Shown: one piece after another, positions 6,401-13,292 of the stretch | Position numbering within the stretch: the stretch's first letter is position 1 | Layout of the letters: each line of letters opens with the position of its first letter | Assembly: GCF_000613885.1 (NCBI RefSeq) | Contig: NZ_BAJV01000001.1 | Coordinates: 248,001-312,000 of the forward strand | Reading direction: 5' to 3' | Length of the DNA: 64,000 nt | Origin: Asaia prunellae JCM 25354 | GTDB taxonomy: Bacteria > Pseudomonadota > Alphaproteobacteria > Acetobacterales > Acetobacteraceae | Program-made: the position numbers and the translations under genes | The notes under the pieces: generated by a model | Told to the model about the DNA's origin: nothing | Seen by the model: only the letters and a program-made list of their open reading frames with translations | The model's database searches: none

Positions 6401-8257
6401 TTAGAAAGCCGCCTGGATACGGCTGCCTATCGCATTGATCGAGCGCCCTCTGGTATTCACGCTGCCAGCCGTCTGCGAACGGGTTGCATTGATATGGCTG
6501 TATTGCAGCTGAATGCGATAATGCCGGTTGATGTACCAGTTCAGCCCCCCTGACCAGACAGTCTGAACGCCGCCGCGTACCCCGCCGGTTATCGCAGCCG
6601 GAATATCCTTCAGGATGTTGCTGTCAAAATCCATCACGCTCCAGCGTCCAACCAGTTCCAGGGCGCCCCACTGATTGTTCCAGAGATCAAAATCCTCTTT
6701 CGGAGCCGGTGCAGAAAAGGCCGCATCCTTGGGGCTGTAACGGCGCGGCTGACCAAAAAGCGTGTAGCTTCCTGCTACGTAATATCCCTCAAAGCCCAGA
6801 TTGGGCGCGGGCCCCTTGCGTCGTGCGTCGGCCGTACGATCAACCCCGATATGATAATACTCCGCCTGTATCAGAGCCCGGTCATAACGAAAGGCCAGTT
6901 CCGGTCCGACAGCCCATACCTTGCCAACATCGGCGATGGTTCCGCTGGAGATCAGACGCTCATTCGTCAGTCGCGTCTCTGGACGATCACTGAGGGAAAG
7001 GACACGCCCCTGTGATGTCTGGTTACGCTTGAATGACATGGTTGATGACATGCCCAGATGCACATCCATGTGTCTGGTGGCAACCGGGCGACCCGCAACA
7101 CGCAACAACCCACCCATCTGGCTGTCGGAAACCGTCGGATCATTGGTGCGATCACCATAGGTCTGGCCTGTAAGATAGGCCCCGAGATACCAGCGGTTCT
7201 GATGTGTACGACCACCGATGCTCAACCGGGTATCACCAGCAGCAATCAGACGTACGACCTCCGAAACTGACGCACGTTCCATCAGGATAAAGCCGTTTGA
7301 GGACTCCGAATCCTGCATCGTCACACGTGGCTGATAATAGCCGACAGTAAACTGCGAATTGTGAATACCGCTATAGACCATATTGGCTTCGTACAGACCC
7401 GCTGTACCATCGACCGTACGTCCCCATTCAGGAGTAAGATTGGCCAGAAGATTGCCGTAGCGCCATGTCAGGGGCAGACGCAGACGACGTGCGTTTTCAT
7501 TCATTTTGGGGAAGCGGCCCGTCTGCCCCTGCGCCGATCCACCCGAAGAAGGGAAACCGCCTATATCAAGATGCATGACAAGGCCGACCGAAAAGGCATA
7601 GAGCCCGTCACTCGAAGCAATAGTCGGGCGGCCTGCCGGAAAGCCGATCCTGATCCCGCCTATATCGACCGTCTCTGCCGTGCGTGTGGCACGTCGGAAA
7701 TCAGCCAGGGACATGTTCAGACCGTGATCAGGCGGTGGAATCAGATGGGTATCATAAGCGACCTGAGGGTTGGACGGCCTGCCCTCACCTTTGACTGGAG
7801 CCGAAGCAAGCTGAACGGGGCCGGATGTCGCCGGAGCATTCTGTAGCGGAGCAGACACGGGTTTCGACGCGGCTGATGGGGCAGAATTCGCAGGAGCAGG
7901 AGCAGACTGGGCTACTGCCTGGGCTCTATTCGATATGGCAACGCCGGAGTGCTCGGGCCCTGTCCGCCGTGAGGCCTGTAATACACCACGGGGAGCGCGC
8001 ATTCTACTTCCCGCGTCCTCTCCATGAGAAGAATGGGCCTGCGCCAGTTCAAACTGACGTCGCAACGTCCGCTCTTTCGACAATTGACGCCGCAAATCGG
8101 TAATCTGGCTTTGCATCTGGGCGCGCATTTCCAGCATCTCACGTCGCAAGGCGGCGATATCGTCAGACTGGCTTGCTGCGAAGGCAGAGACAGGAAACGT
8201 TGCACTGCAAAGCAGTAGCAGGGTGGTCAAATGGCGCACGCGATAGGCTCGAAACAC
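6401..8257 (-). CDS. OprO/OprP-type (phosphate-selective porin family) outer-membrane porin
   Basis: 618 residues. A signal peptide ends near VSAFAA (~residue 28). Next comes a predicted coiled coil (~30-70, IAALRREMLEMRAQM) and a low-complexity Ala/Ser/Pro linker to ~165. A beta-barrel follows. The C-terminal part (WGALELVGRWS..., GGLNWYINRHYRIQLQYSHI) and the final Phe are typical of the OprO/P family and its trimeric DcaP-like relatives, whose N-terminal coiled coils resemble this one. It should be a trimeric anion or organic-acid channel; substrate cannot be told from sequence. It is transcribed away from an AT-rich leader with inverted repeats. Confidence 0.82.
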   Translation of the reverse strand: MFRAYRVRHLTTLLLLCSATFPVSAFAASQSDDIAALRREMLEMRAQMQSQITDLRRQLSKERTLRRQFELAQAHSSHGEDAGSRMRAPRGVLQASRRTGPEHSGVAISNRAQAVAQSAPAPANSAPSAASKPVSAPLQNAPATSGPVQLASAPVKGEGRPSNPQVAYDTHLIPPPDHGLNMSLADFRRATRTAETVDIGGIRIGFPAGRPTIASSDGLYAFSVGLVMHLDIGGFPSSGGSAQGQTGRFPKMNENARRLRLPLTWRYGNLLANLTPEWGRTVDGTAGLYEANMVYSGIHNSQFTVGYYQPRVTMQDSESSNGFILMERASVSEVVRLIAAGDTRLSIGGRTHQNRWYLGAYLTGQTYGDRTNDPTVSDSQMGGLLRVAGRPVATRHMDVHLGMSSTMSFKRNQTSQGRVLSLSDRPETRLTNERLISSGTIADVGKVWAVGPELAFRYDRALIQAEYYHIGVDRTADARRKGPAPNLGFEGYYVAGSYTLFGQPRRYSPKDAAFSAPAPKEDFDLWNNQWGALELVGRWSVMDFDSNILKDIPAAITGGVRGGVQTVWSGGLNWYINRHYRIQLQYSHINATRSQTAGSVNTRGRSINAIGSRIQAAF

Positions 8258-8304
8258 TCTGAACGGGGCTGGCTGCGCGCAGATATAGATGAAACCCCGA
8301 ATCA

Positions 8305-8356
8305 GTCACTCCTATTTTTAGTGACAAAACTTTCCACGAATAAGAAATATTTTGTC
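8305..8356. promoter_or_regulatory. paired inverted repeats upstream of the porin gene
   Basis: Two overlapping inverted repeats lie 48-99 bp upstream of the porin start. GTCACT (8305-8310) pairs with AGTGAC (8320-8325), and GACAAAA (8323-8329) pairs with TTTTGTC (8350-8356). The surroundings are AT-rich. The first could be an RNA hairpin in the 5' leader and the second an operator; neither role is shown. The rest of 8357-8656 is AT-rich with no gene I can support. Confidence 0.3.
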
Positions 8357-8656
8357 ATTATTTCGTGATATTCAGACTTTGATTATTGTGTCGTGAGATC
8401 TTAGGTTATTTTGGTGACATCAAAGCCGTTGAGACCAAATTCACAAAACCAATTAGTTTCAGAGTACCGTTAGACTCGGACAAAATCTTTATCGATTTTA
8501 GCAGGATTTCTACACTGTAGAAAAATCATCCTTAAATTAAACATCAAACAACACCTTTCCTGAGAAGGGGTTAAACTATACAATCTATTGCATCCGAATA
8601 TACGGTAAAGTCCATAAATTTTAGCAGGTAACATATAAATATTTAACAAGTTTGAT

Positions 8657-8947
8657 ATGATATTGGAATTCACTTCCAGTGATAACCTATATTCAATGAT
8701 GATCCAGAGAACAGAACCAGGAAAAAATAGATATTTTCCTCAGTTTTTTCAATACGGAATGGAGAAAAATCTCTTTGTTGAGTATGATATCAAAAACAAT
8801 AGCCTAGTCTTTTCTAAGGATGATGCAGATGTAGTAACAAGGAGGATATTCGGAGACCTAGAAAAACTCAACCTACCTGAGATCAACGGATATAATACTG
8901 GACATTTCATTACATATTCTATAATTAAAATGGATGGGCTGTTGTAA
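8657..8947 (+). CDS. hypothetical protein, 96 residues, AT-rich
   Basis: An open frame of 96 codons in markedly AT-rich DNA unlike the flanking genes. No signal peptide or membrane helix is seen; the protein is rich in Asn, Asp, Ile and Phe, and I recognise no family. The ribosome site is poor (TTTAACAAGTTTGAT before ATG). AT-rich DNA gives fewer chance open frames because its stops are AT-rich, which is weak support. It could be a small gene of the island or a fragment of a longer one. Confidence 0.35.
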   Translation: MILEFTSSDNLYSMMIQRTEPGKNRYFPQFFQYGMEKNLFVEYDIKNNSLVFSKDDADVVTRRIFGDLEKLNLPEINGYNTGHFITYSIIKMDGLL

Positions 8948-9325
8948 GAGAGGTAACTTATTTATATCTCCCAGACTAGGTCCTATTATCTCTTGAACGA
9001 ATATTAACACTGCACTCATTCGTATGATGCTGTTTTTGTTTCCCGGTGATAAGTGGCGGATCGCGTTTTCAGTCGACTGCACGGCAGCGCAGCACTATAA
9101 TCTGGACATCGAACCGCACTCCACAAAGTGCGATGCCCTATTACGGTCAGTACGCCTGGATATTGTGATTAATCCCCTCCCTTCGGCAAGCGTGCATTTT
9201 CGTACAACGAATTTGGAAAAGACCCGTGAAAAACAAACAGTCTTCCGTTGAAATGGCTTGGGAAACGCCATGTTTCTTTGGAACACAATATCGACTACGT
9301 CCAATGGGTCTGAAGCGGTAAAAGC
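8948..9325. other. no recognisable gene
   Basis: Between the small AT-rich frame and the repeat array. The middle (about 9020-9270) is closer to the chromosome average in composition and has short open frames on both strands, none with recognisable protein similarity or a good ribosome site. It could be remnant DNA of an old insertion, but I see no terminal repeats or transposase motif. Confidence 0.3.
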
Positions 9326-9430
9326 GTGTTGGAAGATAAAATTCTTTCCAAGACTCTGGACTATATCAAAAGCTTTATCTTCGATGACGCCCGATATATT
9401 GATGATTTAAATAAATTTTTGGATAAATGA
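9326..9430 (+). pseudogene. C-terminal remnant of an unknown gene coupled to the first exported-protein gene
   Basis: From a GTG at 9326 the frame encodes a 34-residue tail (ILSKTLDYIKSF, FDDARYIDDLNKFL) and ends with TGA at 9428-9430. That stop overlaps the ATG of the next gene as ATGA, the arrangement of translationally coupled pairs. An in-frame TGA lies just upstream, so only the tail survives. The same tail, partly frameshifted, precedes genes two and three, so it belongs to the duplicated unit. I cannot name the parent protein. Confidence 0.45.
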
Positions 9431-10074
9431 TCATGTTGTCATTATTTACTGTTATGTTCTCAATATTTTCTTTACTAATTTATTCGTCAAAATCATATGC
9501 AGAAGAAACGAAATGCTATTTTCCGGATATTCCTTCGTTTTTCGAGGGGAAAACCCTTCCGAATGGACAGCCTGCAGATCTGTCTTTTGCCGACTATCGG
9601 ACTCTTAACCCTAAAGGAGCTGCATTATTGCTGAACTGTGCTAAAACTTTGTATAAAAACGCAGATTTGTCACAGTTCAACGATGCGTCTCGAAAAAGAC
9701 TTAATCGTACCATGGATACTACTTGGCAGCTTCACAACACAGCCGCAACTGCTCAGAAAGATGGGTATATTGCTTTGGGAGGCAACTCGGATATTGGAGG
9801 TGCCAATGATTTGGGAACGATGATCATCGACTCACATAAGAAATTGGTGGCGATAGGTCTTCTCTTTAACACGAGAGATAGAATCGACGAAAACGAGAAA
9901 AACAATTATTTTTACGCGAATTTTTTATTCATTTATGATTCATCTGATTTTGTAGATAAAAAGTTTATTGCCATAAATGAAATGGATTCTATACTCAATA
10001 TAATAAATGAAAATACTTATGGTACTTTTGTTTTCGGGAACAAATATTTTTTAGGGTCCAGTCTTCGATTATAG
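9427..10074 (+). CDS. exported protein of unknown family, tandem copy 1
   Basis: 215 residues with an N-terminal signal peptide (hydrophobic core ~residues 3-22, cleavage likely after SYA). The mature part opens with CYFPDIPSF and contains LSFADYRTLNP, a helical stretch with a second Cys (LLLNCAKTLYKNA), and YIALGG...ANDLGTMIID, which looks beta-rich. The two Cys may form a periplasmic disulfide. Over the ~119-residue core it differs from copy 2 at about 15 positions. I recognise no family. DNA is AT-rich. An immunity-type or secreted accessory role is speculation from the tandem copies and the coupled upstream remnant. Confidence 0.7.
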   Translation: MIMLSLFTVMFSIFSLLIYSSKSYAEETKCYFPDIPSFFEGKTLPNGQPADLSFADYRTLNPKGAALLLNCAKTLYKNADLSQFNDASRKRLNRTMDTTWQLHNTAATAQKDGYIALGGNSDIGGANDLGTMIIDSHKKLVAIGLLFNTRDRIDENEKNNYFYANFLFIYDSSDFVDKKFIAINEMDSILNIINENTYGTFVFGNKYFLGSSLRL

Positions 10075-10384
10075 AATATACCTTTTAGCTGGTAACATTG
10101 GAAAACCGATGATGCCAAGCGAGCGTGCCTGAAGATTACCGATCTTCACTGACATCATACAGTGAGAGCAACAATACAATTCCGTCAGACCAGAACTTGC
10201 CTCTTGATCAAACAGGGCAATTACTCCTTTTCCCATCACATCACGTACAAAAGGCACTCCTACTGCAGACGATAAGATCCAGTCCGGATATCCTTCCGGA
10301 ACCTCGGATTATATCAAAAGCTTTATTCCCAGTAGCAATAGATAGATATATAGATACTCTAAGAAATGTAGTGGAGTAATAATT
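10075..10384 (+). pseudogene. spacer 1: decayed SIS-gene end and upstream-gene tail
   Basis: No intact gene. The first half (10121-10230) matches spacer 2. Bases 10229-10267 match the SIS gene near 12521-12565, in the same relative orientation as the intact gene (reverse strand). Bases 10268-10379 hold a decayed copy of the coding tail seen at 9326-9430: DYIKSF in one frame, then RYIDTLRNVVE in another, ending TAA 6 bp before copy 2. Confidence 0.6.
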
Positions 10385-11020
10385 ATGATAAAATCGTTTG
10401 TAATCGCATCTATATTGTCTTGTTATGCAATATTTCTATCTAAAACATATGCGGACGATACAAAATGCTATTTTCCGGATATTCCTTCTTTTTCCGAGGG
10501 GAAAACTCTTCCGAATGGACAGCCTGCAGATCTGTCTTTTGCCGACTATAGGACCCTTAACCCTCAGGGAGCTGCATTATTACTTAGATGTGCTAAAACT
10601 TTGTATAAAAATGCAGATTTATCACAGTTCAACGATACGTCCCGAAAGAGACTGGATCGTACCATGAATACTACCTGGCAGGAACATGACACTTCAGCAA
10701 CAGCTCAGAAAGACGGGTATATTGCTTTGGGAGGCAGCTCGAAGATTGGAAGCGCCAATGATCTGGGAACGATGATTATCGGCCCAGATAAAAAACTGGT
10801 AGCGATAGGCCTTCTTTTCAATGAAAAAGATGGCGTCGGCGACAATGAGCCGCTTAATTATTTTTCCTCGAACTTCTTATTTATTTATTATTTTACTCCA
10901 TTTGAAGATAAAAAACCCATTACTATATCCAAGATAAGTATGATAATCGATACTATCAACAAAAATATTTATGATAGATATGTATTGAACAATGAGTATT
11001 TTATAGGATCCAGATTTTAA
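10385..11020 (+). CDS. exported protein of unknown family, tandem copy 2
   Basis: 211 residues. Signal peptide MIKSFVIASILSCYAIFLSK with likely cleavage after TYA. The mature protein begins CYFPDIPSF and keeps both Cys (LLLRCAKTLYKNA), YIALGGSSKIG and ANDLGTMIIG. It is the closest relative of copy 1; the last ~60 residues diverge more than the core. The three copies, the AT-rich base composition and the better conserved core suggest the proteins have been kept, at least until recently, by selection. Function unknown. Confidence 0.7.
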   Translation: MIKSFVIASILSCYAIFLSKTYADDTKCYFPDIPSFSEGKTLPNGQPADLSFADYRTLNPQGAALLLRCAKTLYKNADLSQFNDTSRKRLDRTMNTTWQEHDTSATAQKDGYIALGGSSKIGSANDLGTMIIGPDKKLVAIGLLFNEKDGVGDNEPLNYFSSNFLFIYYFTPFEDKKPITISKISMIIDTINKNIYDRYVLNNEYFIGSRF

Positions 11021-11472
11021 TTGTAAAGCGTATCCGATATCACTGAAAGAGTGATGATGTCATGCCAAACCAGCGTACCTGAAGATCTTCGATCCTCACT
11101 GAAACCCTATAGTGAGAGCAAACATGTAATTCAGTTAGACCAGAACTTTCCTCCTGATCAAACAGGGCAATTACTCCTACTGCCTGGCTTCGGCATGCAA
11201 GGGTGGGCTCATCGGCATTCAATTACCGACAACCCTTTTGCTGTGAAGGCAGGAAGATCCGTGGTGCTGCACCACGATCGCCCCTGACCGTAAAGGAGAC
11301 CGTACTCACCTCTAGACCCAGAAAGATGGTCAGTTTTTCATCACATCACGTACAAACAGCACCTCTTCCGCAGACGATAGAATTCTTTCCGAAGCCTCGG
11401 ATTATATTAAAAGCTTTGGTCCCCGTGATAACAGATATATAGATACCCAAGTAATATATTGGAGTAATAATT
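11021..11472 (+). pseudogene. spacer 2: decayed SIS-gene end and upstream-gene tail
   Basis: No intact gene. It starts with the block shared with spacer 1 (11071-11180). Then comes a block resembling the spacer after copy 3 (11187-11250, CTGG-TTCGG-AT and ATTCA-TTACC-AC islands). Next is a clear decayed copy of the SIS gene's 3' part (11250-11370, aligned with about 12430-12565). The coding tail (DRILSEASDYIKSF, DNRYID) begins at 11373 and runs open into copy 3. About 150 bp of the SIS 3' end are missing here. Confidence 0.6.
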
Positions 11473-12111
11473 ATGATAAAATCAATAATAGCCATATCTA
11501 TGGTGTTTTCTCATATAATATTTCCGTCAAAATCATCTGCAGAAGCAAGAAATTGCTATTTTTCAGACATCCCTTCTTTTATCAAAGGAAAAACCTTGCC
11601 GACTGGAAGGGCCGCCGATCTATCATTTTCCGACTATCGAACATATAATCCCAAACAGGCCGCATTATTACTGAGATGCGCGGAAAATCTCTACAGAAAT
11701 GCTGTTTTCAAGAATTTTGATGAAGAAACGCATAAACGGCTAGATCGCACAATGGCACACGCATGGGAGGATCACAACAGTGGTCCTTCATCAACTATAG
11801 ATGGGTACATTACTTTAGGAGGCAGCTCGAAATCAGGCGCCGATATAGCTCTGGGGACATTTGTTATTGGTCCCGATAAAAACCTTGTTGCTGTGGGATT
11901 AAATCTCAACAACCTTGAAGTGGTTGACGAAGATCATTTCTCCAACGGAGTCTTTTCTGGCTTTGTCTTTATATACGATTACTATTCAGAACACCAAAAC
12001 AAAATAAAAATGCAAACCATGGAAAATATATTGAATTCTATACAAGATAGTTTTGGAGATATCTATCATTATAAAAATGTTTATTTCTTAAGATCTACAA
12101 TAAATCTCTGA
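11473..12111 (+). CDS. exported protein of unknown family, tandem copy 3
   Basis: 212 residues, signal peptide with likely cleavage after SSA. The mature part keeps NCYFSDIPSF, LSFSDYRTYNP, LLLRCAENLYRNA and GYITLGGSSKSG, but is clearly more diverged than copies 1 and 2 are from each other. It is the only copy still followed by an intact SIS gene, so it probably occupies the ancestral position. Unknown function; the two conserved Cys again suggest a disulfide-stabilised periplasmic protein. Confidence 0.7.
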   Translation: MIKSIIAISMVFSHIIFPSKSSAEARNCYFSDIPSFIKGKTLPTGRAADLSFSDYRTYNPKQAALLLRCAENLYRNAVFKNFDEETHKRLDRTMAHAWEDHNSGPSSTIDGYITLGGSSKSGADIALGTFVIGPDKNLVAVGLNLNNLEVVDEDHFSNGVFSGFVFIYDYYSEHQNKIKMQTMENILNSIQDSFGDIYHYKNVYFLRSTINL

Positions 12112-12288
12112 ATGGTGCAATAGGATATCTATCAAGCGCCAGACCAAATGGTCGCAAGACCAGTAAGTGTAACCACTCCCACCTCCTGGGTTCGGTATAA
12201 TAAAGTGAGCTTATCAGTATTCAGTTACCAACTCTCTTTTACTCTTGCAGAAGACAGGGAACAGCCTCTCATCAGGCCTGCTAGAGTA

Positions 12289-12313
12289 GCGGGGAAAATT
12301 TTCCGATCCCCGC
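12289..12313 (-). terminator. hairpin downstream of the SIS gene
   Basis: GCGGGGA (12289-12295) pairs with TCCCCGC (12307-12313); the loop contains the self-complementary GAAAATTTTC. It lies 23 bp past the SIS stop codon on the reverse strand and between convergent genes. No strong T-run follows, so it is only a candidate. The remainder of 12112-12335 is spacer of the repeat array. Confidence 0.4.
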
Positions 12314-12335
12314 CTTTCCCCATGAGGGCTACCAG

Positions 12336-13292
12336 TCAGCTGGCGAGTGTTACGACTTTCGTGAGATGGCGGGGCGCCAGCGTATCCAGTCCGTGTGCCC
12401 GGGCTACATATTCACCCAGAAGCTGCAGAACAGGCAGACAGATCAGCGGCGCCGCGCCATGATCGCCCCCGACCGGAAGAGAGACCGTGCCCGGTCCCCC
12501 AAGACCCAGCACGATGGCCCCTTTTTCCATTACATCACGGGCAAGCAGAGCCTCTTCCTCGCAGGTATCAGGATGATAGAGCATGATAACGAAAGAGCGC
12601 TCATCGATCAGACTGATCGGGCCATGGCGATATTCCAGCGGATGATGGGCCTCACTCTGGCTCAGGCTCATTTCCTGCATTTTCAGAGCGCCTTCACGCG
12701 CAACACCATAATGCGTGCCACCGCCCAGAAACACAAAATGGGAGCGGCCTCGAATCAATGCCACAAGATGAGGATCAGCCGCTTCGAGCAAGGCCGCTGC
12801 GGCTGCGATACTGTCATGGCCAATATGGATCCCTGCATAGCGTAGCCCGGCCATAAGCATGAGACTGGCTGAAGCCGTCATCACGATCCCTTCTTCAGGA
12901 TGGGTCTCGGCTTCGAATACTTCCGAGGAAATCTTCGTCAATGCGCTGCCCGGTGCGCAGGTCACACCAAGAACCTCATGTCCCGAGGCTCGTCCGGCGG
13001 AGGCAGCTGCCAGGGTCTCTGTCGATTCCCCGCTGCGCGAAAGGGCCATCAGCCGGGTTTTCATGCCTGATGGCACATAGGATGAGGCGCGACGCGTCCA
13101 CTCATTTCCTGGTACGGCCCGGGAAAGAAAACCTGCTTCGTTGAGGGCACAGGCAATACTGTCAGCAATATGGACGGAGGTACCACAACCGATAATTGCA
13201 TGCATCTGCCCCTTCTCGGGGGTGGAGTGCGGCTGTGTCAGCGCCCTCCAGAACGAAAACTGTTCGCGGATTCCACGTTCTGTCGCATTCAT
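12336..13292 (-). CDS. SIS-domain sugar-phosphate isomerase/deaminase-like protein (AgaS/GlmS-C type)
   Basis: 318 residues. Two SIS folds are visible. The first holds IIGCGTSVHIAD and the phosphate-binding SRSGEST (~residues 85-91). The second holds FLGGGTHYGVAREGALKMQEM and EAHHPLEYRHGP, matching the GlmS isomerase domain and its AgaS/FrlB relatives. No N-terminal glutaminase domain is present, so it is not full GlmS. Likely a cytoplasmic aldose-ketose isomerase or deaminase acting on an amino sugar phosphate. AGGAAGG precedes the ATG at 13292. It has no obvious amino-sugar operon here; decayed copies of its 3' end lie in the adjacent repeat array. Confidence 0.82.
   Translation of the reverse strand: MNATERGIREQFSFWRALTQPHSTPEKGQMHAIIGCGTSVHIADSIACALNEAGFLSRAVPGNEWTRRASSYVPSGMKTRLMALSRSGESTETLAAASAGRASGHEVLGVTCAPGSALTKISSEVFEAETHPEEGIVMTASASLMLMAGLRYAGIHIGHDSIAAAAALLEAADPHLVALIRGRSHFVFLGGGTHYGVAREGALKMQEMSLSQSEAHHPLEYRHGPISLIDERSFVIMLYHPDTCEEEALLARDVMEKGAIVLGLGGPGTVSLPVGGDHGAAPLICLPVLQLLGEYVARAHGLDTLAPRHLTKVVTLAS

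Follow-up and report, generated by a model that had tools for sequence, protein, structure and literature searches.

What do three tandem genes for an exported-looking protein do in an AT-rich island between a porin gene and a SIS-domain gene, and how did they come to lie in a row? The question is posed by a stretch of 64,000 nucleotides from the acetic acid bacterium Asaia prunellae JCM 25354 (GCF_000613885.1, contig NZ_BAJV01000001.1, positions 248,001 to 312,000 of the forward strand), referred to as the window in the following, which belongs to contig C38 of its source genome (G000; 38 contigs, 95% complete). A previous sequence-only reading had described three tandem paralogues of an unknown exported protein with pieces of the SIS gene in the spacers, which was borne out by self-comparison and BLASTN self-matches. 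The protein itself can be described more closely: the three genes are, with high probability, an array of orphan immunity genes, acting in the periplasm against a pesticin-type muramidase toxin whose body was apparently lost. A toxin remnant before each gene and the hybrid likeness of the middle copy go beyond that reading.

The link to a toxin is provided by genome G016. Among 397 genomes of the taxonomic family, seven contained matches to the protein family at E<=0.1, of which three were strong, namely G000 with three copies, A. lannensis (G002, the same genus) with two loci and G016 with one. The other four matches were weak and partial (E 0.015-0.036) and were put down to chance. A further search in the surroundings of G016 led back to G016 alone, and in a contig search only an A. 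lannensis contig matched. In G016, another acetic acid bacterium, the first base of the single orthologue is also the final one of the stop codon (TAATG overlap) of a 1229-amino-acid open reading frame (ORF), the C-terminus of which matches Pesticin (PF16754, E=7e-19, 68.7 bits versus a gathering score of 25.8) and, in a phmmer search, pesticin structures (E=3e-7). The pesticin domain is a T4-lysozyme-like muramidase.

Remnants of the end of this toxin precede all three genes (Table 1). When the last 60 residues of the G016 toxin were compared with the whole window, the best matches fell one before each copy (E 7e-5, 7e-5, and 0.001; next 0.78), and the last 25 residues gave the same three places (9e-6, 3e-4, and 0.039; next 0.14). 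In case of copy 2, the 60-residue match (E=7e-5) is partly chance, since its alignment (10250-10342) enters SIS-derived bases; the tail is a DNA repeat of the other two, with 79% and 63% identity over 62 nucleotides. When 60-residue tails were shuffled, none of 300 reached 26 bits within the 150 bases upstream of any of these genes. The TGA of the copy 1 remnant overlaps the ATG of copy 1 (ATGA). Judged by eye, the remnant is open from approximately 9314, and position 9326, at which the earlier reading let the triplication begin, falls inside this frame.

An immunity gene is recognized by its location directly after, or overlapping, a toxin gene, and this is the arrangement of the G016 pair as well as of copy 1 and its remnant. 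No cognate toxin gene was found in the 95% complete genome G000, as is characteristic of orphans. All six family members have a hydrophobic, export-like N-terminus, which would fit a toxin acting in the periplasm. The two conserved cysteines already pointed out from the sequence (C28 and C69 in copy 2 numbering) are invariant in all six aligned members. For copies 1 to 3, Pfam returned no family at E<=1 and NCBIfam a single chance match (copy 1, E=0.08). PADLOC gave no match for copies 2 and 3 and a chance match (E=0.02) for the neighbouring ORF at 8657-8947. No matches were obtained for copy 2 among plasmids and phages or for the family alignment among viral contigs. The designation as an unknown exported protein gives way, on account of the G016 pair and the toxin tails, to that of a predicted periplasmic immunity protein.

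Table 1. Features of the porin-SIS interval and its flanks (coordinates refer to the window; aa, amino acids)
Feature	Coordinates	Strand	Basis and remarks
Porin gene	6401-8257		Pfam, Porin_O_P; left flank of the island
AT-rich island	8288..12335	none	Porin-SIS interval; G+C content 0.388 versus 0.542 for the window
Putative orphan immunity gene of a second family, 96-aa ORF	8657..8947	+	BLASTP to L096:2393-2770(-)
Putative toxin 3'-end remnant before copy 1	9359..9430	+	G016 toxin end: E=0.001 (60 residues), 3e-4 (25 residues)
Probable immunity gene copy 1, 215 aa	9427..10074	+	ORF, paralogy
Decayed SIS gene 3'-end fragment, spacer 1-2	10213..10268	-	40/56 to 12507-12564
Putative toxin-tail remnant upstream of copy 2, followed by a break in the frame	10301..10342	+	E=0.039 (last 25 residues)
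Probable immunity gene copy 2, 211 aa, apparent hybrid	10385..11020	+	Informative sites; switch near 10440
Decayed SIS gene 3'-end fragment, spacer 2-3	11213..11373	-	119/157 to 12400-12564
Putative toxin-tail remnant before copy 3	11394..11441	+	E=7e-5 (60 residues), 9e-6 (25 residues)
Probable immunity gene copy 3, 212 aa, strongest divergence	11473..12111	+	ORF, paralogy
SIS-domain gene, intact	12336..13292	-	PF01380, E=8e-23; right flank; 3' end to 12564 duplicated

The three copies are in register at 9487, 10439, and 11527; over 300 nucleotides, the DNA of the second and third is 88% and 67% identical to that of the first. Off-diagonal repeats in the spacers are common to the units, and BLASTN self-matches range down to E=6e-170. 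At the protein level copy 1 is 67% and copy 3 is 47% identical to copy 2. The duplicated segment extends from the toxin tail before the immunity gene to position 12564 in the SIS gene. At the base matching this position the SIS pieces of both spacers end, in agreement with the single breakpoint that had been placed near 12565. The longer piece, in front of copy 3, is 78% identical (99/127) to the SIS gene of its own genome, whereas the SIS loci of eight further genomes from the genus reach 61-69% (local alignments, 56-134 columns). As this piece is nearest to the SIS gene of its own genome, the duplication most likely took place in situ in this lineage. Copies 1 and 2 form the closest pair and cluster together with a support of 97/95. 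Copy 3 falls outside of this pair, which agrees with its proposed status as the oldest split, but it is a long branch and its position relative to the remaining family members is uncertain.

Of the stepwise tandem duplication proposed earlier, the use of one segment with one breakpoint stands, whereas copy 2 is no simple duplicate of copy 1, for its 5' part follows copy 3. In the alignment of the three units, sites were regarded as informative where copy 2 agrees with one other copy only. In 10291-10440 these sites favour copy 3 (41 versus 13 for copy 1), and in 10441-11174 they favour copy 1 (224 versus 59 for copy 3). Since the first interval includes bases outside the gene, the switch is not due to selection on the protein only. 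Copy 2 thus looks like a hybrid that took its 5' part from copy 3 and the rest from copy 1. Unequal crossing-over between copies 1 and 3 presumably caused this switch, as it predicts a middle gene of precisely this composition, and the presence of a SIS piece before copies 2 and 3 but not before copy 1 fits such an event. Alternatively, fast change at the 5' end of copy 1 could account for the pattern.

Several observations weigh against the assignment as an orphan immunity array and against its individual parts, and the weak points of the predicted fold and of the comparison with other pesticin partners, given in the two paragraphs below, are to be counted among them. G016 is the only genome in which toxin and immunity gene of this family are known as an intact pair. 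Of the two family members in A. lannensis, one lacks a toxin tail upstream, and the other lies 274 bases from the contig start, within which no tail occurs. No pesticin domain was found in G000, where a toxin could sit in the sequence missing from a genome that is 95% complete. The switch of likeness in copy 2 (Fisher p=1.2e-14) was calculated with sites treated as independent, with a cut chosen after the table had been seen and with omission of the two final bins, which comprised 4 and 3 sites. Copy 3 shares 46-47% identity with copies 1 and 2, whereas these share 53-66% with members from other species. Given an in-place duplication after the species split, copy 3 must have evolved fast or have been replaced by a foreign allele.

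Ivy was named as the fold to test before the structural search was made. The model of copy 2 was built from six sequences (predicted local distance difference test 76.3, predicted template modelling score 0.76). In VIA-align 2 its top two rows were Ivy structures, namely 4ps6 (Z 7.6, 119 aligned residues, 3.3 Å) and 1xs0 (Z 6.3), followed by an acetyltransferase (Z 5.1). These two rows speak for a lysozyme-inhibitor-like protein, but the tool itself notes that Z values below 8 are frequent, and the fold match is thus moderate. Foldseek returned no match at E<=0.001 from the PDB or from viral models, its best value being E=0.06, and sequence profiles of the window family and of the pesticin partners found no Ivy chain in the PDB. 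The window proteins do not match Ivy (PF08816) in Pfam, and CKPHDC, the inhibitory motif of Ivy (PMC3660660), is absent from all six members. Membership in the Ivy family was rejected because both the profile and the motif are missing. An Ivy-like fold of the family nevertheless seems to us somewhat more probable than not on the basis of the model.

The pesticin domain of G016 occurs in 10 of the 397 genomes at E<=0.01 (12 places). In favour of an immunity function, an exported-looking protein directly follows the lysozyme-like ORF in five of six Acetobacteraceae stretches viewed by eye besides G016 (seven places in total; those in G235, G399, and G413 and one in G021 were left out). Six places do not enter this count, namely one each in G016, G021, G235, G399, and G413 as well as the second G240 place. 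One of these partners is an LprI lysozyme inhibitor (PF07007, E=4.5e-8). Those in L061, L062, and L064 carry a CQPHAC motif together with a weak, sub-threshold Ivy match (E 0.19-0.22), and the partner in L063 shows the related motif CxxHxC but matches nothing in Pfam. The sixth stretch (L060) has no such partner. Profile comparison of the window family with the other pesticin partners gave a weak result (probability 23%), and direct BLASTP of copy 2 against an Ivy-motif partner gave no match. A structure predicted for such a partner reached a local distance score of 51 and was not used. In A. lannensis a pesticin domain is located directly behind a signal-peptide-like start, with the tail in another frame (L060:9656-10141, minus strand), which may represent either an exported lysozyme or a relic of toxin-immunity recombination. 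A 508-amino-acid ORF combines a pesticin domain with a subsequent Ivy-motif partner (L061:7356-8882, minus strand), and toxin and immunity protein seem fused. Genes that resemble phage tail genes by eye lie next to an ORF with a pesticin domain and one of the carrier type in L063 and L097 (G021).

Asaia lives in insects, and the three proteins might instead be lysozyme inhibitors in the manner of classical Ivy, directed against lysozymes of the host or against the bacterium's own lysozymes and lytic transglycosylases. The predicted fold would suit such a function, and Ivy is described as controlling bacterial lytic transglycosylases as well (PMC3660660). We nevertheless regard this explanation as improbable, since the toxin tails before all three copies and the overlapping toxin gene in G016 are foreign to it, the Ivy motif is absent, and strong matches in only three of the 397 genomes are unlike the distribution of a housekeeping inhibitor.

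The selection that had been proposed to diversify the proteins was not recovered over the whole gene. The ratio of nonsynonymous to synonymous substitution rates (dN/dS) is 0.31 for copies 1 and 2 and 0.27 for copies 2 and 3. It could be computed for 11 of 15 pairs and is <=0.31 in all of these, synonymous sites being saturated in the other four pairs, as is the case for copies 1 and 3. The mature N-terminal part is the most constrained (0.16 for copies 1-2, 0.09 for copies 2-3; identity between copies 54-86%), followed by the C-terminal third (0.31 and 0.53; 27-46%). The 25-codon signal stretch is the least constrained (0.52 and 1.13; 28-40%), and only here, between copies 2 and 3, is a value above 1 reached. 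Selection on the copies is therefore mostly purifying, and positive selection at single sites is possible. The higher variability of the C-terminal third and of the signal stretch, together with the retention of three copies, would also suit an amplification, for dosage or diversification, of an exported protein of unrelated function, with the tails present by chance or by hitchhiking. This is very improbable, as the three tail matches share the same relative place and exceed those in the rest of the 64 kilobases (kb) and in 300 shuffles, and as whole-gene dN/dS is low. A decaying relic, in which toxin and immunity genes are both disappearing and the copies have no current role, would match the reduction of the toxin to tails and the frameshifted neighbour at 8657-8947, but is just as hard to believe in view of three full-length ORFs (211-215 codons) with low dN/dS despite synonymous saturation in some pairs, which are intact while the copy 2 toxin tail and the SIS pieces are broken.

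For the orphan immunity array the following history appears most likely. The ancestral state would have been a toxin gene and an immunity gene in one overlapping operon, as kept in G016. The toxin body would then have been lost in this lineage, with the last few dozen toxin codons left before the immunity gene. The segment of toxin tail, immunity gene and SIS 3' end (to 12564) would subsequently have been tandemly duplicated in place, and the hybrid middle copy would have arisen later, when copies 1 and 3 underwent unequal crossing-over. The proteins, probably Ivy-like, would bind an incoming muramidase in the periplasm and in this way protect a cell that does not produce the toxin itself. Export, binding, and inhibition, like the Ivy-like fold and a selective reason for three copies, are what we infer from these relationships.

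The limits of the island follow from an alignment with five relatives, in which similarity breaks off at 8170-8287 on the left side and returns at 12331-12349 on the right. In 500-base steps, the 4-kb stretch of the window with the lowest G+C content starts at 8001. Four of the five relatives fetched (L055-L058, the exception being L059) carry one different gene in the porin-SIS interval, which we take to be catalase-like and for which Pfam gives no match. This gene was not found by tblastn in the window or in L020 (an overlapping 19.5-kb stretch), to which the search was confined. Upstream of the array, the product of 8657-8947 resembles that of L096:2393-2770(-) (BLASTP E=4e-15, 37% over 67 amino acids), which is the gene after a DUF4214 carrier in G326, and it is thus probably an orphan immunity gene of a second family. 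Homology to the C-terminus of that family continues in another frame to approximately 8976, and the gene is consequently frameshifted. Members of this second family occurred in 4 of 357 genomes. An ORF fragment at 8383-8520 was weighed as a possible second toxin tail; its only overlapping match in the whole window had E=1.5, which is at the level of chance, and no such tail is claimed. Promoter and terminator scans returned consensus matches only and were not used.

Relatives of the G016 toxin, as judged from its first 998 residues, occur in 22 of the 397 genomes, G000, G002, and G007 not being among these, and a further carrier search of G000, which had no positive control of its own, gave no match either. 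From 11 stretches of 11 genomes with such carriers, four carrier ORFs were scanned with Pfam. The first combines DUF4214 with a contact-dependent inhibition (CDI) nuclease end (E=1.7e-10) and is followed by a CdiI gene (2.5e-11). The second has a Tox-REase-5 end (2.6e-9) without a DUF4214 match, and the remaining two contain DUF4214 and unnamed ends. The G016-type protein therefore looks like a polymorphic-toxin carrier. Delivery by a type VI secretion system (T6SS) was rejected, as the sheath gene VipB (PF05943) was found in none of nine genomes tested, G000 and G016 included, with Escherichia coli being positive among 14 controls. Against this rejection it has to be set that in Serratia a cluster of DUF4214 proteins is described as correlating with the presence of T6SS (PMC12165300) and that the secretome of Asaia bogorensis is described with software-predicted routes including type VI (PMC12502724).

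Similar immunity clusters occur in two genomes of the genus, A. lannensis (G002) and G007, in which no carrier toxin was found. In G002, three tandem CdiI-like genes with 89-93% DNA identity (L018:6643-8540, minus strand) share a 19-kb stretch with one member of the family that has three copies in the window, and the genome contains no carrier match. Two of the three were scanned against Pfam CdiI and remained below the cut-off (E 0.006-0.007), while one of the genes is 34% identical to each of two carrier-adjacent CdiI-like genes (E 2e-23 and 2e-25). In G007, three places of the 8657 type lie in a row (L108:6573-7450, minus strand, and G007:C17:16825-16977), one of them with a stop codon. This array is located near a third immunity type, which is 48% identical to the gene after the Tox-REase-5 carrier.

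It is tempting to speculate, though we would sooner doubt than assert the picture as a whole, that acetic acid bacteria use T6SS-independent polymorphic toxins with a DUF4214-like carrier and exchangeable ends, that neighbours keep toxin-less islands of matching immunity genes, that a new, motif-less Ivy-like lineage is directed against a T4-lysozyme-type toxin and that the array both grows and mixes specificities through hybrids made by unequal crossing-over. More immediately, a probable function and a link to a cell-wall toxin can be proposed for a family without Pfam, PADLOC, or meaningful NCBIfam matches. The growth of an immunity array by tandem duplication is documented with breakpoints and a hybrid gene, and the results point to an antagonism of acetic acid bacteria that is not necessarily T6SS-dependent in the genomes checked.

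Lysozyme-like toxins with dedicated immunity proteins are known from several systems. Pim is the immunity protein of Yersinia pestis pesticin. The Ivy structures 4ps6 and 1xs0, the top two structural matches of the model, belong to lysozyme inhibitors (PF08816), from which the window family differs by the missing Pfam match and CKPHDC motif and by its predicted target, a T4-lysozyme-like toxin. In case of VgrG3cp and TsiV3cp, a pesticin-like muramidase is neutralized by the product of the directly downstream gene (PMC9927483). VgrG3cp is a T6SS-delivered VgrG, whereas the G016 carrier is a DUF4214-kind repeat protein in a genome without a detected T6SS sheath gene. The WHIX effectors of T6SS also bear pesticin lysozyme-like ends beside genes of signal-peptide proteins, some of which are reported to carry the DUF1311/LprI lysozyme-inhibitor domain (PMC12135965). 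Again no T6SS sheath gene was found in G016. In Xanthomonas, the lysozyme-like effector X-Tfe XAC2609 is paired with a periplasmic, lysozyme-inhibitor-like immunity protein, X-Tfi XAC2610, which is predicted to insert a loop into the active site (PMC10933484). As described there, this pair differs in its GH19 enzyme, its PliI-like beta-propeller and its delivery by a type IV secretion system.

Orphan immunity genes as such are known (PMC10539506), and arrays of them as well, whereas the present family, its Ivy-like assignment and an array growth through duplication in which a hybrid can be traced seem to be new. The case was not encountered in the literature searched, which comprised open-licence papers judged mostly by title and the start of the abstract. 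Orphan cdiA-CT/cdiI modules are comparable in that detached toxin 3' ends lie beside immunity genes, and one orphan cdiI is reported to have been shown to work; according to the same source the C-terminal toxin domains are retained there and those tested are functional, whereas here only the last residues are left (PMC3150448). In the T6SS orphan immunity arrays of Vibrio cholerae, immunity genes are likewise kept after loss of the toxin and are thought to protect against kin still using it (PMC5361080). The Vibrio arrays are attributed in that account to successive displacement of effectors, duplication having been considered and rejected for them (PMC5361080). In the A. prunellae array, by contrast, no T6SS sheath gene was found in the genome and duplication is documented by the SIS fragment and the hybrid copy.

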